Source: Gammaproteobacteria bacterium
Lineage (GTDB): Bacteria; Pseudomonadota; Gammaproteobacteria; Pseudomonadales; Azotimanducaceae
DNA length: 39,269 nucleotides
Reading direction: 5' to 3'
Assembly (NCBI GenBank): GCA_026709365.1
Contig: JAPOTD010000031.1
Span: 20,763 to 60,031 of the forward strand
Shown here: one piece after another, positions 1,648-39,269 of the stretch
Layout: each line of letters starts with the position of its first letter
Position numbering within the stretch: the stretch's first letter is position 1
Translations under genes and position numbers: made by a program
Notes under the pieces: model-generated
Seen by the model: the letters and a program-made list of their open reading frames with translations, nothing else
The model's database searches: none
What the model was told of the DNA's origin: nothing

Positions 1648-2142
1648 ATGGCGTTGCGCGCACGGTCATTGGGGATTGCGGCCCTGTTCGTGGCGCTGGC
1701 TTGGTCGGCATCGGCCGATCCCGAGGCTTGGGACGAGCTGCCGGATGGTGAGCCTGCGGAGTTGGCGCGGCTTTACCACACGGCGCTGGCGCTGCCGGGC
1801 GTGGGCGATTGGCCTCCGGCCCAGCGGGCGGCGCTGGTGGACGCGGCGACCCTGCGCTACCGCGACCGGCTGGTGGACCGTTCGTCCGCACCGTTCCCCG
1901 GCACCGGGCGTCGGCACCTCGAGCGTTTGGTCGTCGGCGGGGCGCCGGAGGGCGCTGTCGGCCAGGCCTGCGCGCAGTTTGGCGTCCTCGATGGCCCTTG
2001 CCGGATGCATCGCAGTTACGTTCGACGGGTGCTGGTGGTTGAGGAGATGCTCGTTCAGGAACGGCTCACCTTGGCGGATTTGGAGGCCGAGTTGACCGGT
2101 GCAACGCGGCCCGGCTTGAGCGATTCATGGCGGGTTCGGTGA
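1648..2142 (+). CDS. Small secreted protein of unknown function
   Basis: The product is 164 residues from the ATG at 1648. A TTG nine bases upstream is in frame, but the GGGAGGG ribosome site at 1631-1637 is correctly spaced only for the ATG. The N-terminus MALRARSLGIAALFVALAWSASA is a clear Sec signal peptide with a probable cut after ASA. The mature part is helical-looking and charged, with two Cys in the CAQFGVLDGPC segment that could form a disulfide. I recognise no family. It lies 36 bp upstream of the giant modular protein and is probably in the same transcript, so it may be an exported partner of that protein, but nothing in its sequence shows this. Confidence 0.7.
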   Translation: MALRARSLGIAALFVALAWSASADPEAWDELPDGEPAELARLYHTALALPGVGDWPPAQRAALVDAATLRYRDRLVDRSSAPFPGTGRRHLERLVVGGAPEGAVGQACAQFGVLDGPCRMHRSYVRRVLVVEEMLVQERLTLADLEAELTGATRPGLSDSWRVR

Positions 2143-2178
2143 GCCATCGCCCGCAAGCCACTTAGGCTGTTCCCGTTC

Positions 2179-5100
2179 ATGCGGATTGGCGGTGCGCTCT
2201 CCCAATGGTGGCCATGGACGCTTTGCCTGTTTGTCGCCGCTGCCCTCGCATTGGCCAATGTCCCTGAACCGGGCTCGTCAGCCGCATCGGCGCTCGCCGC
2301 CAACCATGTCCCCACGCTGACCCTCCACCCACCGGGCATGATCAAGGTCCGCGCTGGCGAGCGGACCCTGTTGAGGGCGGCTGCAGCCGATCCGGATCGC
2401 CTGGGGGACGGGGCCTTCGAGACGGTTTGGCTGCATGCGGCGCCCGCCGCGGGCGGCCCGGCGCCGACTTGGCTCCCCGAGGCCGGTTGGTCGGCCGGCC
2501 CGTCGGCCCATCCGCTGCTCAAGATCACGCTGCAGCCGCCGCTGGACGCGCTCCCGCAGCGCTTCCGGGTTGAGGTCGGCGCAACGGACGGGCGTGGCCT
2601 CACCAGCCTGGGAGCCTTCCAAGTCGCCGTTCTGCCCCGGTTGTGCGCCAGCCCGAACTTCAACGATGGCGGCGCCTGCCGGGAGTGTCCCGCCAACCAG
2701 GTTCCCGACGGTTCCGGGCGTGGCTGCACCCCCTGCGAAGCCGGAACGGAGCGTCCCGCTGGCGCGTCGTCTTGCGCGGCCTGCCGGAAGGGCCTGTCGA
2801 GCGACGCGGGCGGTGCCTGCGGCTGCGGCCCGGCGGGCGTTCTGGACCAAGGCCAGTGCGCGGAGTGCCCGCCGCACACGGCGGCTGCGGCCCAGGGCAA
2901 TTCGTGCGTCGCCTGCCCGCCGGGCCAGGAGCGCCCGGCGGGTTCGCCGGACTGCGCGGCGACGGCCTTGGCCATTGCCTCGAAGTCGGCGCGGGCGCGA
3001 CAGATTGCGGTGGTGGCGGACTTGGTGCGCGGGGGCTTGACGCTTGGGGAGGACGCGGGCGAAGTTCAGGTGCGCCTGGCGCTGAAGCCCAAGCCGGCGG
3101 CCGGCAACTACGGGGGCTGTCGGCTGCGGCTGTCGCAGGGCAGTGAGGCCAACGCCTCGGACGTGACCTTTTCCGACCGGCGCAAGCTGACTCCGGGGAA
3201 CGGATGGAAAGGGCAGACTGGCTTGATGACCTTGGTGGACGACGCCCTTGCGGAAGGCGATGAGACGCTGGTGGTGGAGGGCTACTGCGCATCGAGCGGC
3301 AATGGTGCGGATCCCAAGCATAGAGCCCTCGTCTCGCGGCCGTTGACCCTGACGATCCGGGACAACGACGCCGCGCTGTCGCTGTCCACCGTCCCGGACG
3401 CCATCGGCGAGTCGCTGGGCAGGCAGCCGGTCGAAGTGGCCGCCACGCTGGACCGGCCAGCGTCCCGGCCGGTGGAGGTGGCGCTCACCTTGGGCGCCGG
3501 TGCGTACTCGGTGACGGGGACGCAGCGCATTTCGATTGCCGCGGGCGCCACTCACGGGACCACGACGCTCGCCATTACGCCGACGAACGACTCCAATGCG
3601 ACCGACGATGCGGTGGCCGTTGAGGGCTCGGCGGTCGGCCACCGGGTGACGGGCGCGACGCTGACGATTCGGGAGCCGGTCATCGCCGACGGCGTGGATG
3701 TCAGCGGCCTTGGCGTGGCGCTGTCCGTGAGCCCGACGGCGCTGCGCGAGGGCCGGCGTGGCACTCATCGGATATCGGCGACATTGACCGGAGTGCCGGT
3801 ACCCCAGGCGGACGTGGCGATGGTGCTGGCGGTGGGCGGCACCGCGACCGAGGGTTCATCCCATGACTACACGCTGAAGGGGGGCCGGGACTGGCGCAAG
3901 CTGAGGGTTGCGGCGAATGACCCGTTCCTGACCGCGGGAACCAAGGTCACGGTATCGGCGCGGGCTGACGGCATTGACGAAGGCGACGAGACCGTAACGT
4001 TCGCGGTCACGCAGGTGGCTTGGGGCAGGACGGTCGTGCCGCTGAACCCGCCGGCGGTGGCGACGCTCATGATCACGGAGGCTTGGCAGGCCCCGGCGGC
4101 GCCGTCCGGGCTGACCGCGGTGCCGTCGCCCGGTGACGAGCGCCACGGGCTCGACGCGGCTTGGGATGCCGTTGCCGCCAATCCTTCGGTGGACGGCTAT
4201 GTGGTGCGGCACCGCAAGGTTTCGGACCCGCCTGCCAAATGGACGGCCTCCAAGCCGCAGCCTGGGCTGCGGGCTGCGTTGACGGGGCTGTCGGCGGGAA
4301 CGCGGTACGAGGTTCGGGTGCGGGCGAACAACGCCGCTGGCCAAGGCACGGAATCGGGCAGCGTCTTCGCCCGTACGGCCGACGGCAACTGCTCCGTTGG
4401 CGCGCCCCGGTTGACCGTCCCATCCGGGGCGCGTTCGGCGACGGAGCTAGGGGTAGCTTGGCAGGCCGCGGCCTGCTCGCCGGCGGCTTCGATCAGCAAC
4501 TACCAAGTGCGGCATCGGGAAGACCCGGACGTCGAGGGGATGGACAACGCTTGGCTGCGGCAGGCCGTAAACGGCTTGGCGACCGCGTTGACGGGCCTGA
4601 CGCCGGACACCGCCTACGTTGTGCAGGTGCGGGCCGTGGCCACGGGCGGCGACAACGGCCCTTGGTCCCCGCCCGGCCGGGCCCGCACGGGGCTGGACGC
4701 CCGGCTGCCGCCTCGGGTGGCGGCGCCCGCGGTCGCGGCGAACGCACGTCATGGCGATGCGCGGCTCGACGTGGCTTGGCGGCGGGTGACTTGGACGGAT
4801 GCCGACGATGTCGCGCAGCCCGTTCCGGATTACCAGTATCGATACCGGCCGGATGGCGGGGACTGGACCGCGCCGACCGACGCGCGAGCCTCCGGCGGCG
4901 AGCCCCAGCGCATGGCCCGAACGTTGAAGGGGCTGGCATCCGGCACTTGGCACGAGGTGCAGGTGCGGGGCGTGAACCGGCTGCAGGGTGCTGCGCATCC
5001 GGGCAAGTGGTCGGAGCCGGGCCGCGGCCGCACTTGGGGAGTGCCGGATCGCGTGAAGCAGCCCGCCGCTTACGGCGCGGGCGGCTCGGTGGCGGTGGTC

Positions 5101-8100
5101 TGGGAGGCGCCGGATGACGGCGGCTCGCCAATCAACGACTACGACGTGCAGTTCAAGGCCGACGGCCTCAACGGTTGGAAGACCCATCCTTATGCGGGTT
5201 GCGCGCGGGCGGGCTGCGCAACCGAGACGACGATAGCGACGGCAGCGACCAGGGTGCGGGTGCGCGCCAACAACGCGGTGGGCCGGGGTGCCTGGTCGCC
5301 TGCGGCCGAGGTGCGGGCGCTGAAGCTGCTGCGCGCCGCCTTTGGGACATCGAGCGCGACCCTTACCGAGGGCGGCACGCTGCCCGTCGCCGTGCGGCTC
5401 GATGGCGCGGCGGACCGGGCCGTGACGGTGCCGCTCCTAGCGGCGGGGGACGCCGACGCCTTTCGCCTGGATGGCGCGCCGGGGCAGCAGGTGTCGTTCA
5501 GCGTGGGCGAGTCCGCCAAGACGTTTGATCTGGCCGCGCTTCAGGATGCGGACCGCGACGAGGACGCAGTGACGCTCAGCTTCGGGCCGCTGCCGGCAGG
5601 GGTGCTGGCGGGCTCCCCCGCAACCCTGTCCCTGACCATCGAGGACGACGACGGGCGCAACCGAACGCCGCAGTTTGCGCAGGCCAGCGCAACCCGCACG
5701 ATCGCCGAGAACTCGGCTGCGGGTGCCGCCGTCGGCGCTCCGGCAGCGGCCTCGGATCCGGATGGCGATGCGCTGACCTATTCGCTTGCGGGCACCGACG
5801 CGGTGCTGTTCACCATTGCGGCAAGCACCGGACAGGTCCGCGTGGGGCCGGGCACGGCGCTTGACTTTGAGGGTGGCCCGACGAGCTACGCGCTGCGGGT
5901 GGACGTGAGCGACGGCAAGGACGAGGCGGGTGAAGCGGACCCAACGGTGGATGCCTCCATGATACTGACGGTGGAGGTCGCGGACGTTGCCGAGCCCCCG
6001 CTAGCGCCGGAGCCACCGACCTTGAAGCCCAGATCTCGGTCAATGTCCGTGCGCTGGTCGGTGCCGACGCACTCCGGGCCGCCGGTGACGGGCCAAGTTC
6101 TGGCGCACCGGGCGGCTGCGGCGGCGCAGTGGACGGAAACAACGCTCGAAGGGCTGGCCACAGAGGCGGAGATCGAAGGGCTGTCGCCTGGGGCGGCTTA
6201 CGAGGTTCGGCTGCGGGCCGTAAACGACGAGGGAATGAGCCCTTGGTCGGCGACCGCCGTCGCCAACACCCTGCCGACCGTATTGGTCGAGGCCAGTGAT
6301 CCAAATCCGACGATCGGGGCGGACGGTGCGTCGGTTTCGGTGACGCTGACGGCTCATGTTGAGGTGGCCGAAGGAACCTTGCAGGGCCGCTGGTCGCGCT
6401 CAGGCCGCAACGGAACGACGGAACAGCTTTCGGAGGAGCCTTTCGCGCTGGAAAGCGGCCAGGCGATCACGCTATCCGCGTCCTCATCGTCGCCGGGATG
6501 GTGGCTTTACGCCTTGCGCGTGTCCCACCGCTTGGATGGCCACCAGTCGAGCACCGCTCACGGAGCGGTGGTGGAATGGCTGCCGACGGTGGTGCTGTCG
6601 GCCGATCCGGCGGCGGTGCCCGAGGGCAGTTCCCGCACGGTGAAGGTGACGGCCACGCTGACCGGCGACGGGGCGACGGACGCCGCCAAATCGGTGTCCG
6701 TCACGGTGGCGGGCGGCACGGCCGCGGCGGGGGAGGACTTTGCGGAGGTGGAGGCCTTCAGCATCCCCATCCCGGGCGGTGCCAGCAGCGCCAGGGGGAC
6801 GTTCGAGCTGACTGCCCTGGCCGATTCGGTGGCGGAGGGTTCGGAGACGGTGCTGGTGTCCGGCAGCGCCGACCAGGCGGGCACGGCGCTGCCGGTGGTC
6901 GGCGCGACGCTGCTGATCGAGAATGTCGGCCTCACGCTGACGGTGGCGCAGCCCAGCAACGGCTACGTGACCGGCGTGGACGGCGGCGGGGCCACGGTCA
7001 TCGACTGCGGTTCGGGCGGCCGCGCCACCTGTGCGGCGACCGCGGCGCAGGGCACGGCGGTGACGCTGACGCCAACGGCGGACGCCGGCCATGGATTTGG
7101 CGGCTGGACCGGCGACTGCTCCGGGAGCGGCCCCTGCAAGGTGGTGTTGGACGCCAACCGAGCTGTGGGCGCTCGTTTCGCGGCGCTGCCCGGCAGCCCC
7201 GGCGCGCTGGCGCTGTCGCCGCTCGGCCACGACGGGCTGCGGGCTTCCTGGCAGGCGCCGGCTGGCAAGGGAACGGGCATCACCACCTATGAACTGCGCT
7301 ACCGGATGCCCGGGACCCAGGCATGGTCGGGGCTTGCGTCCTTAGGATCGGGGACGCAGGCGACCATCACGGGGCTTGCGGCGGGCACACGCTACGAGGC
7401 GCAGGTTCGCGCGCAGTCCAAGGAGGGTTGGGGGCCGCGCTCCGCTTTGGTGGAGGCGGTGACGCTGCCCGAGGTCTCGCTGAGCGTGGATGCCGCAACG
7501 CCCGTCATCGACATTGTTGACCGGGCAGCGACCGCCACGCTGACCGCCAAGGCCGTGGCTGCGGAGGGTTTGCTGACCGGCCGTTGGGTGCGGCGCACCA
7601 CCGAGGGGCTCGCCACCGTCAACGGCCAGCCGTTCGCGATGCAGAGCGGCCGGGACTACAAGGCGGCGTTCGGCCACGACGCGCCTGGGGTTCGGGCCTA
7701 CGGACTGATGGTCTCCCACGGGGTCAACCAAGCGGCGGGCGAGATCGGCGGGGTCGTCGAGGTGCGCTGGCTGCCCACCGTCATGCTTATCGCCATTCCG
7801 TCCAGCGTGGCGGAAGGCGGCGGGGCCCAGCGGGTTTCGGTGACGGCGCGGCTGTCGGGTAGCCCGGTGGAGAATGTGGCCAAGTCGGTGACGGTTCGGG
7901 TCGGCGGCGGCACGGCGACCGCCGGGACGGACTTCGAGGCGGTGGACGACTTCACGATCCGGCTGCCGGCGGGGACGCAGGGAGCCGTCGGCGGGTTCGA
8001 GTTGGCGCCGGTGGCGGATTCGGACGCGGAAGGCACCGAGACGGTGGCCATCTCCGGCAGCGCCGTTCAGGATGGCTTGGCGCTGCCGGTGGTGGGCACG

Positions 8101-11100
8101 AGGGTGCGAATCCAAGACCCCGAGCGCCACACGCTGACCGTTGCCAAGCCCGCCAATGGCCGGATTGCCGGCCCCGGCATCGACTGCGGCGGGCAAGGCA
8201 CGGACTGCTCCGAGGTCCACCCCCACGGGTCGGCGGTGACGCTGACCGCTGCGGCGGATGGCGGCCAACTGCTGCGCGGCTGGACCGGGGATTGTTCCGG
8301 AAAGGGCGACTGCGCCTTGGTGATGAATGCGGACAAGTCGGTCGGCGCATCCTTCGCGGCGGCGCGGACCCTTACGGTGGCCAAGCCGTCCAACGGCCGG
8401 ATCACTGGGCCGGGGATCGACTGCGGCGGGCCGGGCACGGACTGCTCCGAGGTGTTCTTGGATGGCGCATCAGTCACGTTGAAGGCGGCGGCGGATGCGA
8501 GCCATCTGCTGCGGGGCTGGACCGGGGACTGCTCAGGTGCGGGCGACTGCGTCCTGGTGATGGGCGCGGACAAATCGGTTGGCGCAACCTTCGCGGCGGC
8601 ACGGACTCTTACGGTGGCCAAGCCCTCCAACGGCCGGATCACGGGGCCGGGGATTGACTGCGGCGGGCAGGGCGCGGACTGCTCCGAGGTTTACTTGGAT
8701 GGCGCATCGGTCACGTTGAAGGCGGCAGCGGATGTGAGCCACCTGCTGCGCGGCTGGACCGGGGACTGCTCGGGCGCGGGCGACTGCGCCCTGGAGATGG
8801 ATGCGAACAAGGCGGTGGGCGCCTCGTTCGGGGCCAAGCGAACGCTGACGGTGGCGCAGCCGTCCAACGGCCGGGTGACCGGCAAGGTCGGCGCGGCGGC
8901 GGTGATCGACTGCGGGGCGGACTGCGTTGAGACGCTGATCGACGGGACGGTGGTGGCGCTGCAGGCGGTGGCGGCGGACGGCCACCGGTTCGACGACTGG
9001 GGCGGCGCCTGCGCATCGGAGGCGACGGCGTCCTGCTCGGTGGCGATGGATGCGGACCGTTCGGTGAGCGCCTCCTTCGCGGTCGGCTCGACCGCGGGCC
9101 GCTGCGACGAGGGCGTGGTGGACGGCTGCGCGGCGGGGACGCTGAACCGGAGCGCGTTCGGCGACACCCCCTCGCACCACCGCTGGCGCTGCGACGGCTC
9201 CGGCGGCGGGGCGCACTCGCCGCAGTGTGCCAAGGCGAAGGCGGGCTGCACGGCGGGCGGCCGCAGCTGGAGCGCGGGCGGGCTGTCCTGCTCCGGCTCG
9301 GTGGCCGCGGCGTCGAGCGGCGCGTCGGCGACGGTGCGGGATGGGGGCGACCCGACCCGGGGCTCGGCGCGGTTCCTGTGCGACGACGGGGCTTGGGTTG
9401 GGCAGACGGGCGCCACCTGCACGGTGGACCTCGGCTGCGGCGCCTCGGAGAACAGCTGCCGCACGGCCGGGGTGCGGGCGACCGGCCTGTCCAGCGCCGC
9501 GCCGGTGGATGGCCGGTGCGCGGCCAACGAGGCCACGGCCTGCTGGGGCGGCACGCCCGACCGGAACTCGCCCGCCGACGTCGTCCAGGAGGACGGGGCT
9601 TGCGGCACGGAGCTGAACGAATGCAAGGGGGGCACCAGCCACTCGCCGTCATCAACCGATGCGGCTTACCGTTGGGAGTGCCGGGGCATCGACGGCAAGA
9701 AGCGCTGGTCGTGCCTGGGCGCCGACGGCGGGAGCAGCTGGCGCTGCGGATACGGCGGGCGCTCCCGGTCCTGCTCCCTGCCGACATACGCTGTGAGCGA
9801 CTACTCGTGCAGCGAGCCCGACGGGACGGCGGACTCCTCCGTCTGCCTGCTGTGCAAGTCGGGGTATGCGAAGGACGAGAACGGAGATTGCGTGAAGGTG
9901 CCCGAGATGCCCATATGCGGGAGCACCGAGGCATTGTGTGACGTGGGCACGTCAGCCCAGTCGGGTGACAGCTTGGATCCGCCCGTTAACAAGTGGACCT
10001 GCACCAGCGCTGGCGAGACGAAACACTGCGAGGATCCCGCGCCCCCGCCGGTTTGCGGAACCAACGAGGAACGTGCCTTGATCGAAGGGGAGCTCCAATG
10101 CGTCTGTGAGAACGGCTACCAAAAGCAGGAAGGTGTTTGCGCGAGGTTGCCCGTATGCGGGAGCACCGAGGCATTGTGTGACGTGGGCACGTCAGCCCAG
10201 TCGGGTGACAGCTTGGATCCGCCCGTTAACAAGTGGACCTGCACCAGCGCTGGCGAGACGAAACACTGCGAGGATCCCGCGCCCCCGCCGGTTTGCGGAA
10301 CCAACGAGGAACGTGCCTTGATCGAAGGGGAGCTCCAGTGCGTCTGTGAGAACGGTTACCAAAAGCAGGAAGGTGTTTGCGCGAGGTTGCCTGTATGCGG
10401 AAGCAAGGAGGCCTCGTGTAACGTGGGCACGTCGGGCCAGTCTCGTGACAGCCTGAAACCGCCCGTGAACAAGTGGACCTGCAGCAGCGCTGGCGAAGTG
10501 AAACACTGCGAGGATCCCGCGCCACCGCCGGTCTGCAAAGCCAAGGAGCACCACACCTTGGATGCGTTGGGCGAATTGATCTGCGCGCCGAACCCTTACT
10601 GCCCGAGCCCGCTCGAGGAGAACCAGTGCGAGCCGGCAAGCGCAATGTTCATGGACTTGGAGGATTCGGTCGTGCATGGCGAGCGAAATGCAACCAAAGC
10701 CGAAGAGTGCAAGTTCGGTGAGTTTAAGGGCTTGGACGACGACCCGCCAAAGAACGGAAAGTGCGCCTCCCAAGCCAACCAGTGCGATGGCAACGAAATC
10801 GCCGCAACAAACCAAAGACAAACCGCAAGCGAATACCGATGGGACTGCATTGGAGTTAACGGCTCGAAGGACAACTGGAAATGCAATGGCAAGGACGGCC
10901 ACCGAAAGTGGCAATGCAGCAGCGGGTCGATGACCCAGATCTGCCAGATTCCGGTGACTGGCGTGGAGGTCGGAACCCACGACCAAGGCGGAACGGCCGT
11001 CCCGGCCACCAGCGAGCGCAACTGCGTGGCCTGCAAGCCGGGCCACAAGCTGAGCGGCGGCGTCTGCGTCAAGCTGCTCGCCGCTGACGCCGGGGGCAAC

Positions 11101-32272: not shown

Positions 32273-32282
32273 GCTGGGATGG

Positions 32283-32361
<79 letters not shown>

Positions 32362-34935: not shown

Positions 34936-35958
34936 ATGGACAGACCGCCCGGGAAGCGTCCCAGTAGGCCCAAGGGTGCCAAGCCGCAGCCCCACGACTT
35001 GGCCTTCAAGTCGCTCTACGGCTTCCGCCTCATGGCGGAAGACCTCTTCGAGATCCTACTCCCTCAGGAAGTGCTCGATCGCATCGACTGGACTACCTTG
35101 GAACGCCTGCCCGCTGAATGGCTCAGTTCAAGTCTTGAGCGTCGTGACGGGGACTGCGTTTGGCGAGCGCGGCTGCACGGCGGCGGAAGTCTCATTGTCC
35201 CCGTTGAGTTCCAGCGCGGACTGGACCGCCTGATGCCGGTGCGGCTGAACACCTACTCGTCGTTGCTCGTGGAGGACTTGGCCAAGCGGGGCGAGTTGGA
35301 TCAACGCCCAAGGGGGCGGATACTGCCGCTCGTCCGCCCGGTGGTGCTTTACAACGGCCTGCGTCCGTGGCGCAGCCCTTTGCGCCTGTCCGCGCTGACA
35401 CCTGACGGCAAAGGGGACTGGCCGGAGATGACCTTGCTTGACATAGGACGGATGGCGATTGAGGATTTGCCTGCCGGCAATGCAGTGACTTCGCAAGTCG
35501 AAATATTCCAAGGCGGGCTGGCGCGGGATGCGGACGGTGTTCTGGACCGGATGGCGAAGCGTTTCGGCGGCTCGGAGCATCGGGAACTGCGCTCGGCGTT
35601 CGTCCAGTGGGTCTGGCACTCGGTGGCACCGGACTTAGGCGTGGATGCAGCGTTGCTGGAGCCGGAGTTGCTGAGAATTTCTGAACTGGGAGAGGTGCGC
35701 GAAATGAAAACGCTGGTGATGAAGTCAATGGTGGACCACTGGCTTGCTGAAGGCCGTTCGGAGGGCGAAGCGCGGGCGCGGGCCGACCAGCGGGCGCAGT
35801 TGCGTCGGCAGGCGGATCGCAAGTTCGGCGCGCGGGCGGCTAAAAGGCTGTCGGAGTTGGTCAGAGGCGTGACCGATCCGGAGCGGCTGGCGGAAGTCGG
35901 CGACTGGATCATTGACTGCCGTACCGAGGCCGAGTTTCTGGCACGTGCTGAGCGCTGA
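34936..35958 (+). CDS. Rpn/YhgA-like PD-(D/E)XK nuclease family protein
   Basis: The 340-residue product resembles the Rpn (recombination-promoting nuclease, YhgA-like) family, once annotated as putative transposases. The start HDLAFKSLYGFRLMAEDLFEILLPQEVLD is the family N-terminus. The nuclease core shows Asp73 (DGDCVW) and Glu91-Phe-Gln93 (VPVEFQRG), then LNTYSSLLVEDLAKRG and VVLYNGLRPW. Residues about 250-335 are charged helices (ARADQRAQLRRQADRKFGARA, DPERLAEVGDWIIDC), similar to the DUF4351 tail. E. coli Rpn proteins are DNA endonucleases that raise recombination and some act in phage defence. The gene stands alone between repeats and the DUF4007 operon. The start has no strong ribosome site. 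Confidence 0.8.
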   Translation: MDRPPGKRPSRPKGAKPQPHDLAFKSLYGFRLMAEDLFEILLPQEVLDRIDWTTLERLPAEWLSSSLERRDGDCVWRARLHGGGSLIVPVEFQRGLDRLMPVRLNTYSSLLVEDLAKRGELDQRPRGRILPLVRPVVLYNGLRPWRSPLRLSALTPDGKGDWPEMTLLDIGRMAIEDLPAGNAVTSQVEIFQGGLARDADGVLDRMAKRFGGSEHRELRSAFVQWVWHSVAPDLGVDAALLEPELLRISELGEVREMKTLVMKSMVDHWLAEGRSEGEARARADQRAQLRRQADRKFGARAAKRLSELVRGVTDPERLAEVGDWIIDCRTEAEFLARAER

Positions 35959-36142: not shown

Positions 36143-36170
36143 TTGAGGGCCTGCAGGTGTTCGGTATAGT
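36143..36170 (+). promoter_or_regulatory. Candidate promoter of the DUF4007-NTPase operon
   Basis: TTGAGG (36143-36148) and TATAGT (36165-36170) are 16 bp apart, with transcription expected near 36177, 35 bp before the ATG. The surrounding 253-bp gap is noticeably AT-richer than the housekeeping block, particularly near 35975-36005, and holds no gene. Confidence 0.4.
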
Positions 36171-36211
36171 GGCTACCGACAGCAACGGTGTCGGGCAGAG
36201 AAACAATCGAA

Positions 36212-37117
36212 ATGCAGTATGTAGTGGGACATTTTGGTGGGTTTCCACTCAGGCTTTCTTGGCTTCCTAGAATGGTCCACAGATACAGGGACGAGGGGAA
36301 AGTGCCTGCCAATCTGGAAAAAATCGCCTGCGAATTGGGCGTGGGGAAAAATATGGCGAAGTCCATGCGCGCATGGGGCCGGGTGAGCGGCGTCCTGGGC
36401 GACGGGGGCGAAATCACGCGGCTGGGAAAACGCCTGTTCGTTGACCACGACCCATTCCTTGAGCGGCCGGAAAGCATTGCGTTCCTGCATTGGCAGATTA
36501 CCGCGAACGTCGAAAGGGCTTGCGCTGCGGCTTGGGCTTTCAATCGCATTACTGATGATCGCTTTACGACCGACGAAGCGATAGGCAACTTTATTCAGCA
36601 CCTGTCATCCGCCGCTGGGGTCGCCTACTCGAAAGGGACTGTGCGTGGGGACGTCGAAGCCGTGATTCGCATGCACACGCGTGATGCCAATAACCTCAAC
36701 GAGGATATTGGGGACCGCTTCTTTGCGCAAATGGGCCTGCTGACAGAAGGCGGACGCGGTCGTCAAGGACGGCATAGACGAACATGGGAGAGCAACCGAG
36801 CCCACGTCACGGAACGTGTTGTTGAGCACGCCCTGCTGTCCTCCTTGGCGAAGAGAAGGGCTGAATCCTCAACGCTATCCTCTCTGTATCTGAACCGCAA
36901 CGCGCTTGCATCTCCTGGCGTGGTTTTCGGTCTCACAAGCGATGGATCTTATAGTTCTGTCGAACGTATCTGTCGAAGGCGGCAGGCCCCCCTTTCGCTA
37001 GCCGAGATGCCGGGCGGAGACTCCATGCTAGTGGCTTGCGGAAGATGGGGCGAAATCTGCAGGAATGGGCAGACTGCACACGTGGATGACCGCTTCTTCG
37101 AGCGATACGAAGCCTGA
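36212..37117 (+). CDS. DUF4007 family protein, probable defence or DNA-modification component
   Basis: The 301-residue product matches the DUF4007 pattern: a GHFGGFPLRLSWLPR start (family form GHETFPLRxxWLPK), LGVGKNMAKSMRAW near residues 42-55, then LGKRLFVDHDPFLERPESIAFLHWQI and an AWAFN segment. The fold looks like winged-helix units with an N-terminal conserved face; no catalytic motif is evident. The ATG at 36212 fits the family start; a GTG at 36188 is in frame. The next gene follows after 9 bp. As I recall, DUF4007 genes lie in islands with large P-loop NTPases and DndC-like PAPS-reductase genes, which I cannot check here. Codon use and GC differ from the nusA block, suggesting transfer. 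Biochemical function unknown. Confidence 0.8.
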   Translation: MQYVVGHFGGFPLRLSWLPRMVHRYRDEGKVPANLEKIACELGVGKNMAKSMRAWGRVSGVLGDGGEITRLGKRLFVDHDPFLERPESIAFLHWQITANVERACAAAWAFNRITDDRFTTDEAIGNFIQHLSSAAGVAYSKGTVRGDVEAVIRMHTRDANNLNEDIGDRFFAQMGLLTEGGRGRQGRHRRTWESNRAHVTERVVEHALLSSLAKRRAESSTLSSLYLNRNALASPGVVFGLTSDGSYSSVERICRRRQAPLSLAEMPGGDSMLVACGRWGEICRNGQTAHVDDRFFERYEA

Positions 37118-37126
37118 TACGCTCAA

Positions 37127-39269
37127 ATGCGTCTTTCCACCAACATTGAGAGCATGGAGGACATCAGGTGGGCAAACGAATGTTACTGCCCAACTGACCA
37201 AGCCATGGAATTCGTTGGGGAACTGTCCACAAAGGCCCTTGCCGGTGGTGCCGCATTCGCGCTGGAGGGGCCATATGGGGTAGGAAAGTCATCCCTGCTG
37301 GCCTTCTTGCTGAATCAGGTTGCCAGTCCGATAGGTGAGCGTTCGTCGTCGTTTGCGTCCAAGCAGCTGCGTAAAACGAATTGCCCAGCGAGCCGATTGC
37401 GCACGGCGGGCGGGTTGGTTCCCTTGGCATTCACTGGCTCACTCGAAAGTCTCGCGTCGAAAATCCTCTCTTTCGCGGAAGACTTTGTCGAACGCAATCC
37501 GGACGCCGTAGGAACGGACGCCCTCCGCTCCTCGCTGTCCGCTTCCGCTGGCAAAAGCCCCCAAGCGGTGGCGGCGGAGTCTTTGAGGGCCTTTGCCAAG
37601 GCTATCCGCTCTAGCGGGGGCGCGGGCGTTCTCTTGGCCATTGATGAGTTCGGCAGGCATTTGGAACAGATGCTTGGCTCCGTGGGAGGCGCCGACCTCC
37701 ATCTACTTCAGGAACTCGCGGAGGCGGCCGGGCGCCCGGATGCGCCGCTAACCTTGGTTATAGTGCAGCACCATGGGCTGGACCACTACGCTGATAGGTT
37801 GCTCGGCGATGATCGAACAGAGTGGGAGAAGGTTCGGGGACGGTTCAGAGAGACGGTGCTTCAGAACTCCGAAACGGACACCGCCCACATCATTGCGGGT
37901 GCCCTGCGCTCCCTTCCCACAGATCACACCGGGCAGGCACCCGCCCCAATTGCGCTCGACAAGAGCAAGTCGGCCCCACCGTTGATGCGGGATCAGGTCT
38001 TCCTTGACGCATGCGTTTCCTGTCGTCCGCTACACCCCATGACCATCGCTTTGCTCGCACGACTTTCGCGCCTACTCGGCCAGCAGGACCGCACGGTTGT
38101 GGGCTGGCTGTCGTCGGAAAAGCCAGCGGGATATGCCGCCGCCCGGGATTCCGCATTGGGTGGATGGGTGCGTCCCGACGCTCTCTTCGACCACTTTTTC
38201 GCGGACGCTTTGAAAACCCCTTCAAACCCCGTGTTTGCCAAGCGGTTTGCCGCCATTTACGAGGCTTGGGAGCGTGTCGGCGATGACTTGGAGTCAGGGG
38301 CCCGTTCACTGTTAAAGGTGATGGCACTGCTCAGCTTTTGCAGCGGGCGCGGAATCTCCGCTAACCGGGGAGGTGCGCGCGCCTGCCTGCCTTCCGGCTT
38401 TCCCTTCAAGGCCAACATTGAGCGCTTGGTCAGCCGGGCCCTGCTTGTCTATCGCGAGTTCCGAGGCGAGTATGTCGTCTGGGACGGGAGTGACTACGAT
38501 GTCGTCGGCAGGATCGACGCGGAAATGTCCATGTTTGAACTGGACGCCGCCCTAGAGATGAACCAGAGGTTCGCTCGCGATGTGCTCGCCCACCGTCACT
38601 ACATCGAGACGGGAAACCGGCGCACGGCTCGCTTAGCGTGGCTGAATCCGGGTCAGCAGGTTCCCCCATCTTCTGGGGCGCCTCGCATCCTAGTTTGGCT
38701 CGACGCCCTCCCCGGAGGGGCAGCCTGCACTGGCATGGATGTTCGCGCCTACATTCCCTCTGCCGCCCTGATCCCTCACTTGAAGGCATGCGCTGCCATC
38801 CGGCGACTTTTGGAAGGCGATGCCGACCTTCTGGGCGATAAAGTGGCCGCTAAGGAGATGCGCATTCGTCTTGAGCACCACGATGGTGCGGTTTCGGCTC
38901 TTGTTGAAGATTGGCTCGCCTTGTCCAAGGCCGCATGGAGGATTGGGGACCATGAGTTTGCCTCAATGCAGGAAGCGGTGACCGCGGCAATGGACAAGGC
39001 GTATCCGATGGCTTTCGATCTCCACTTGGACATGTTCAACAGGGAGCAGTTGAGTGGGCCAGCAACTGCAGCCTTCAGGAAGCTCATTGAAGCCCTGTGC
39101 GGATCCCCGTCGGCGGAGAGGCTGGGTATTGAGCGATTCCCGGCCGAACGTATTCTTTACGAGGCGTTCATCAAGCGATGCCATTTGCATGTGAAGGATC
39201 GCGACGGAGCGTGGCGACTCACCATAAATGCGAGAGCAATGCCTGACAATCTTCGGCAGATATTGTCGG
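37127..39269 (+). CDS. Large P-loop NTPase of putative defence operon, 3' end beyond window
   Basis: The frame is open for 714 codons from ATG 37127 to the window edge, with no stop. Walker A is GPYGVGKSS at residues 48-56, directly after the strand AAFALEG. Walker B is LLAIDEFG with Asp173-Glu174. Residues about 300-330 read RPLHPMTIALLARLSRLLGQQDRTVVGWLS; as I recall, large NTPases of defence islands carry a similar HPxTxxLLxxLSRxxGQxxRT block. The later part is helical (for example KACAAIRRLLEGDADLLGDK) with no nuclease motif seen so far. It resembles STAND/AAA-type ATPases of the BrxC/DUF499 size class rather than a helicase: no SAT or QxxGRxxR motif was found. It is coupled to the DUF4007 gene. 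Role in defence is inferred from partner and location. Confidence 0.75.
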   Translation, partial: MRLSTNIESMEDIRWANECYCPTDQAMEFVGELSTKALAGGAAFALEGPYGVGKSSLLAFLLNQVASPIGERSSSFASKQLRKTNCPASRLRTAGGLVPLAFTGSLESLASKILSFAEDFVERNPDAVGTDALRSSLSASAGKSPQAVAAESLRAFAKAIRSSGGAGVLLAIDEFGRHLEQMLGSVGGADLHLLQELAEAAGRPDAPLTLVIVQHHGLDHYADRLLGDDRTEWEKVRGRFRETVLQNSETDTAHIIAGALRSLPTDHTGQAPAPIALDKSKSAPPLMRDQVFLDACVSCRPLHPMTIALLARLSRLLGQQDRTVVGWLSSEKPAGYAAARDSALGGWVRPDALFDHFFADALKTPSNPVFAKRFAAIYEAWERVGDDLESGARSLLKVMALLSFCSGRGISANRGGARACLPSGFPFKANIERLVSRALLVYREFRGEYVVWDGSDYDVVGRIDAEMSMFELDAALEMNQRFARDVLAHRHYIETGNRRTARLAWLNPGQQVPPSSGAPRILVWLDALPGGAACTGMDVRAYIPSAALIPHLKACAAIRRLLEGDADLLGDKVAAKEMRIRLEHHDGAVSALVEDWLALSKAAWRIGDHEFASMQEAVTAAMDKAYPMAFDLHLDMFNREQLSGPATAAFRKLIEALCGSPSAERLGIERFPAERILYEAFIKRCHLHVKDRDGAWRLTINARAMPDNLRQILS

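Follow-up and report, generated by a model that had tools for sequence, protein, structure and literature searches.

A predicted phosphorothioate-based restriction-modification locus of a gammaproteobacterium couples sspBCD with a helicase, a MORC-like ATPase and a PLD-family protein

Loci in which sspBCD is accompanied by SspE or by SspFGH are established systems (PMC8092258; this and the other papers are cited from parts of their text). A 2021 survey found 2,211 of 2,678 sspBCD loci (printed as 83.9%) to be without SspE and SspFGH, and asked about further restriction partners of sspBCD (PMC8092258); a 2025 review gives dndFGH/sspFGH, sspE and pbeABCD as restriction branches. Here we analyze a locus that starts at the end of a 39,269-nucleotide stretch of Gammaproteobacteria bacterium DNA (Azotimanducaceae; assembly GCA_026709365.1, contig JAPOTD010000031.1, positions 20,763 to 60,031; hereafter the window). 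The window holds sspB and the start of sspC; the rest of sspC, sspD and a triad of genes for an SF2 helicase, a MORC-like GHKL ATPase and a PLD-family protein follow on a second contig. Judging from its gene content, the locus is likely a phosphorothioate-based restriction-modification (anti-phage) system with a modification and a restriction module. The modification half is of a known kind, and helicase-GHKL-PLD is a predicted new restriction arm that comparative genomics supports well; the novelty sits in this latter half, outside the window.

The first gene, sspB, is located on the forward strand at 36212..37117 of the window and encodes a DUF4007 protein of 301 residues (the mechanical list of open reading frames begins the frame at an upstream GTG, 36188). 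Profile and sequence searches match it to Pfam PF13182 (DUF4007; E 2.3e-36), the PADLOC SspB model (2.1e-42) and a solved SspB chain (PDB 6juf, 2.5e-9). By homology the product is the putative DNA-binding and nicking subunit of single-strand phosphorothioation, and SspB has been reported as a nickase (PMC8092258). Nine bases further, sspC follows on the same strand (37127..39269), where an open frame of 714 codons (37127-39268) runs off the window and is truncated by the contig end. This piece represents the N-terminal two thirds of an AAA+ (BrxC-like) ATPase: the PADLOC SspC model matches across residues 17-700 (2.4e-106), BrxC-PglY is a weaker relative (4.9e-44), and the P-loop is weak in Pfam, under the cut-offs (AAA_16 0.001, BrxC_BrxD 0.024). 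NCBIfam at 0.001 gave nothing for SspB or the SspC piece, and a PDB sequence search gave no match for the latter. A preliminary description of this DNA had placed the DUF4007 frame and, 9 bp on, the frame of at least 714 codons correctly, and the Walker A (GPYGVGKSS), Walker B (LLAIDEFG) and HPMTIALLARLSRLLGQ blocks that it named are found in the translation. Its label of an uncharacterised DUF4007 and NTPase system has to be dropped: since the pair is the known sspB-sspC, the modification half is not uncharacterised, and an unknown DUF4007 system is rejected on the PADLOC and PDB 6juf matches.

The window end coincides with the end of contig C40 (60031). Contig C103 of the same assembly repeats the last 68 window bases (67 of 68 identical) and continues the SspC frame; the join is backed by a locus of the same genus (L019), in which a single unbroken frame of 1085 codons is 82% identical to both SspC halves. 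The first bases of C103 (about 53; 1-53 of stretch L004, which gives the coordinates used here for this contig) are adapter-like and contain a 13-base inverted repeat. They resemble leftover sequencing adapter, and the assembly break inside sspC may be its effect. The rest of sspC (about 54-1194) has an ATGA in common with the start of sspD (1191-2090), whose product matches PADLOC SspD (2.8e-81) and PAPS_reduct (1.3e-7) and contains SGGKDS, so that a DUF4007-type SspB, an SspC directly downstream and a PP-loop SspD are all in place. Next come the SF2 helicase (within 1999-3439, with an interrupted frame), the GHKL ATPase (about 3495-5459; HATPase_c_3 9.5e-20) and the PLD-family protein (5447-6361; PLDc_2 0.0022 and PLDc motif 0.012, both under the Pfam cut-off), with a 13-base overlap between GHKL and the first ATG of PLD. 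Housekeeping-like genes begin at 6498. A plain housekeeping continuation past the window is rejected because SspD and the triad precede these genes. The expectation in the preliminary description of modification or effector genes just past 39269 was thereby borne out; what follows directly is not plainly housekeeping, and both the DUF4007 and the P-loop domain are present.

A divergent second copy lies on contig C86, with all six genes in unchanged order (30% identity to the C103-side copy for SspC, 34% for GHKL). Its helicase has 540 aa, the PLD proteins have 304-306 aa, and both are encoded by separate genes. No cysteine desulfurase was recognised beside either ssp locus; the SspA-or-IscS component of an SspABCD module is found as IscS elsewhere in the genome, on C66 (578.9 bits against the NF010611 cut-off of 548), and C95 carries a further desulfurase-like gene. 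In three relatives (L020, L105 and L106) a desulfurase-like gene adjoins the ssp locus.

The described SspABCD-SspFGH and SspABCD-SspE systems likewise combine sspB-sspC-sspD, a desulfurase beside the locus or elsewhere, and adjoining genes in the restriction slot (PMC8092258, PMC13251355). Unlike in these systems, the slot is here occupied by helicase-GHKL-PLD: a PADLOC scan of the proteins of both loci (without the interrupted helicase of C103 and the C-terminal part of the GHKL on C86) gave no match to SspE, SspF, SspG or SspH, and membership of either system is rejected. The suggestion of something phosphorothioation-like in the preliminary description consequently holds for the modification half, which fits by predicted gene content, but the module beside it corresponds to neither SspE nor SspFGH. 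Genome-wide scans covered SspE and SspH (SspF and SspG were not sought at this scale). For SspE only weak partial matches were obtained, on C36 (best 4.7e-8), and for SspH only a 755-codon frame that matches the last part of the model (1409-1762), as FtsK would; each of these searches also matches 8 of 14 control genomes.

PbeABCD and CxC-ABC share the link to phosphorothioation and an SF2 helicase plus PLD/HKD domain (PMC6459918, PMC10853773). PbeABCD itself has PbeA as one fused protein, the ABC ATPase PbeC and the DndE relative PbeD, whereas in the present locus the helicase and PLD are separate genes on either side of the MORC-like ATPase, and the match of the helicase to the PADLOC PbeA models is only partial (2.1e-18). 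As no PbeC was found either among the scanned proteins of both loci (the interrupted C103 helicase was not scanned), this membership is rejected. Type-4 BREX also combines DUF4007, a BrxC-like ATPase and a PAPS reductase, but PglZ is present in all of its loci and BrxL in most (PMC12839542); with 0 PglZ matches in our genome (2 of 14 controls match) it is rejected as well.

Among solved chains and NCBIfam models the helicase is nearest to RadD, and the best structural match of the PLD model is SauUSI. The latter is a single fused protein that acts on methylated DNA. As a restriction enzyme (PDB 7clg) it likewise combines a PLD nuclease fold with a helicase, yet it differs from the present locus in having no ssp genes and no GHKL. 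Partial model coverage was obtained in PADLOC for GHKL with MzaB (4.1e-15 and 3.0e-10) and for PLD with ZacB, MkoB and DrmC (best 7e-14); none of the effector proteins tested passes the cut-off of an NCBIfam model (June 2026). The GHKL protein has the ATP-site motifs and a MORC/MutL-like ATPase module. MORC/paraMORC proteins with an SF2 helicase, sometimes with HKD, were described in 2008 with a proposed restriction role (PMC2292703); unlike ours, those operons come with DNA methylases and Vsr-type nucleases, and the available text of that paper holds no mention of PAPS or a sulfur link. Nitrococcus mobilis and Anabaena variabilis are named in its legends, so that the 2008 work may already have come across the same operons without the link to sulfur. 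In the available text of PMC3506569 and PMC5512222, MORC occurs in the reference lists only. A 2025 paper on Acinetobacter baumannii mentions a histidine kinase near an ssp locus without known nuclease and suspects a new variant, and in a 2020 microbiome paper histidine kinase genes are reported next to SspE for 211 strains of Acinetobacter. No description of the triad as a partner of sspBCD was found in the open-access literature (most subscription papers and all bioRxiv preprints lay outside this scope).

To describe the neighbourhood of the GHKL gene we used the best 80 of 329 relatives obtained in a scan of genome contigs, annotated with hidden Markov models on stop-to-stop frames. The helicase adjoins GHKL in 77 of these 80 loci and PLD in 72, and conserved catalytic residues accompany this linkage. 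One locus (L057) is scored as lacking an adjacent helicase because the stop-to-stop GHKL frame is lengthened, the helicase ending inside it at 9989; L103 and L104 begin at contig ends. All three ssp genes lie near GHKL in 64 loci, one or two in 6 and none in 10. Among the 49 loci flanked by 9 kb or more on either side, 46 have all three; of the three exceptions (L066, L071 and L095), L066 has a class-V aminotransferase and the end of an SspC at the edge of the flank. The arrangement is variable: SspC is divergent in 31 loci, upstream on the same strand in 21, convergent in 13, downstream on the same strand in 2 and unseen in 13. The iterated SspD profile also took in a PAPS-reductase-like accessory gene of Streptomyces and kin, and an SspD-labelled frame without SGG(K/R)DS occurs in 25 of the 80 loci, 23 of which also have one with the motif. 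The remaining two (L086 and L092) have no motif-bearing SspD; L086, a contig-end fragment, was not counted as complete, whereas L092 was. As a separate observation, many actinobacterial loci carry an extra PAPS-reductase-like gene with the motif SYGGGVQS after PLD (e.g. L048 13295-14584 and L037 13500-14525); in these two, which were scanned, it has no Pfam match at 0.001. A Rhodoferax contig (L072 8594-12537) shows a second, divergent GHKL-helicase pair beside the first, with reversed gene order.

Going by contig titles, the relatives are spread over Streptomyces and other actinobacteria, Proteobacteria, Bacteroidota, Chloroflexi, cyanobacteria and more, including the named isolates Streptomyces scabiei 87.22 and Nitrococcus mobilis Nb-231. 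Within the host family 8 of 200 genomes (own included) have a GHKL match, and five of the seven others carry triad and ssp genes (L018-L022; the fetched stretch of L018 stops inside SspC); another (L023) has a lone PLD with a GHKL tail. Plasmids harbour relatives as well (20 records at E up to 1e-20), and a phage collection yielded none at E up to 1e-10. Two of these plasmids, Trichormus variabilis plasmid A and Roseobacter litoralis pROLI83, are annotated in their own records with the triad and ssp genes and, in addition, with DndB/DGQHR and cysteine desulfurase genes. Their DndB/DGQHR proteins (PF14072) are located at L105 4851-7157 and L106 11830-13083.

Pairwise identities were compared for 28 non-redundant loci out of 57 complete ones. 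Correlations amount to 0.93-0.97 among SspB, SspC and SspD, to 0.78-0.90 among helicase, GHKL and PLD, and to 0.64-0.80 between the two modules (0 of 999 permutations as high). The modules can nonetheless be exchanged: L030 and L031 are 87%, 90% and 86% identical in helicase, GHKL and PLD against 27%, 22% and 53% in SspB, SspC and SspD, while L022 and C86 show the reverse (80-88% for the main pieces of SspB-C-D, 29-43% for the triad). The effector set therefore tolerates a replaced specificity pair. This speaks against an endonuclease that has a fixed site of its own and needs it to be covered by the mark, unless every pair places the mark at one common motif (5'-CCA-3' in the described systems; PMC8092258).

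Seen from the ssp side, SspD was found in 11 of 398, 10 of 369 and 13 of 390 genomes of the host phylum, class and order (own included each time). From these, 30 ssp loci were fetched through SspD alone, not counting the own genome and a single repeat. Helicase-GHKL is present in nine (L108, L110, L111, L112, L114, L122, L127, L131 and L135), accompanied by PLD in eight; other partners are SspF/SspG/SspH (11 loci), SspE (2) and PbeC (1), and 7 loci are without assignment. For the partner counts one large protein of each of the other 21 loci was scanned with PADLOC, so effectors may have gone undetected in the seven; in L128, which is among them, a frame matches DndH (3.6e-67) and SspH (4e-23). 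Second, divergent SspB/SspC-like pairs were seen beside a normal sspBCD at L107 3791-9226, L121 1754-7792 and L130 528-6004, the one of L121 adjoining a PglZ-domain frame.

These counts bear on a regulatory or DNA-repair role, in which the triad would process nicks or damage from phosphorothioation instead of restricting phages. The closeness of the helicase to RadD and the report of SspB as a nickase (PMC8092258) would fit such a role. We nevertheless consider it very unlikely, as the triad takes, in 9 of 30 loci, the place held elsewhere by SspFGH, SspE or Pbe, which fits a restriction slot (the nine were not checked for additional SspFGH, SspE or Pbe proteins), and as HKD plus SF2 helicase is a recognised restriction pair (PMC10853773).

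Several observations weigh against a dedicated sspBCD restriction arm. Only the best 80 of the 329 relatives were fetched, the query was made from ssp-linked members, and many of the loci are close Streptomyces. The only SspD-like frame of L092 lacks SGG(K/R)DS; without this locus the counts become 63 of 80 and 45 of 49. Two fully covered loci (L071 and L095) have helicase-GHKL without PLD or ssp genes, beside sugar-metabolism genes, and in the host family a distant GHKL relative (L024) lies beside an apparent methylase and a Vsr-type gene. From the ssp side, 21 of the 30 loci do not show the helicase-GHKL module. At the protein level, the strict MORC motif GhXhhpXXRhl in the S5 domain is met in 0 of 86 GHKL proteins (10 of 11 positions fit in all 86, the tenth being Glu in each), for which reason we speak of MORC-like and reject MORC proper, and 28 of 74 PLD proteins lack the Asp that the strict HxK(x)4D motif requires. 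The lone pairs of L071 (8333-11788) and L095 (8313-11788) belong to two Chloroflexi-type metagenome-assembled genomes.

It might thus be argued that the ssp genes form an ordinary SspABCD locus and that the triad is an independent neighbouring defence system (a MORC-type restriction-modification or Mokosh-like system) sharing the same islands. Defence genes cluster in islands, which counts for this explanation, as do the two lone pairs. The methylase loci with MORC/paraMORC, SF2 helicase and sometimes HKD (PMC2292703) point in the same direction. We regard it as unlikely: of the 49 fully covered loci, 46 have the ssp genes next to the triad, in several arrangements; the triad occurs in 9 of the 30 loci obtained through SspD alone; and the module identities are correlated, although shared host ancestry can also produce this.

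Two further points against our interpretation concern the present genome, where the C103 helicase is interrupted and read in two frames (279 + 258 aa) and a run of 10 N divides the C86 GHKL, so that neither copy is shown intact in this assembly. Both copies could be decaying relics of a system functional elsewhere. This seems rather unlikely: the C86 split coincides with the N run of the assembly, assembly quality is doubtful at C103 because the contig begins with adapter-like sequence, and close relatives (e.g. L019) have open frames.

For the phosphorothioate-based system we propose the following mechanism. SspB (DUF4007) would bind and nick the site, with SspC as ATPase, and SspD with a cysteine desulfurase (here IscS encoded elsewhere) would put sulfur into the host DNA backbone; from its genes, the cluster very likely marks the DNA of its own cell with sulfur, and this mark would separate self from non-self. 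On incoming DNA the RadD/ResIII-type SF2 helicase would translocate, the MORC-like GHKL ATPase would close as an ATP-driven dimeric clamp and the PLD-family protein, with one catalytic motif, would cut as a dimer. Helicase, MORC-like ATPase and nuclease, which may form a complex, probably destroy unmarked phage DNA. The mark might be read by blocking the cut (as reported for SspFGH) or by licensing it (as reported for SspE). We tentatively consider it possible that helicase-GHKL-PLD, as yet without a name, serves widely as an additional restriction arm of sspBCD phosphorothioation, in which the MORC-like clamp reads the backbone sulfur directly or via the helicase.

The surroundings of sspB in the window agree in part with the preliminary description. 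The region is AT-richer than its neighbours, as it had noted (GC 0.59 for 36188-39269 against 0.67 for 1-36000). For the candidate promoter that it placed upstream there is a sigma-70-like site on the forward strand (TTGAGG-16-TATAGT, 36143..36170), but the evidence is weak given a consensus score of 9 out of 12 and one site found against a mean of 0.3 in shuffles. Immediately upstream of sspB lies a YhgA-like Transposase_31 gene (PF04754, 9.3e-16; 34936-35958). Further away, a 6-base repeat GCAACA (12.7 copies, 32282-32361) precedes, just on the 5' side, a putative polynucleotide phosphorylase frame, named from reading the sequence.

Helicase-GHKL-PLD may fill part of the gap left by the 2,211 of 2,678 sspBCD loci without SspE and SspFGH (PMC8092258). 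In our sample, which is limited and taken from the host's own phylum, helicase-GHKL is found in 9 of 30 loci, against 11 for SspF/G/H and 2 for SspE. The open question of the restriction partner would thereby turn into a three-gene deletion experiment, and MORC-like ATPases would be placed beside a DNA mark that is chemically simple and measurable. If true, a relative of the eukaryotic MORC/SMCHD1 silencing ATPases would be central to a self/non-self system based on the DNA backbone.

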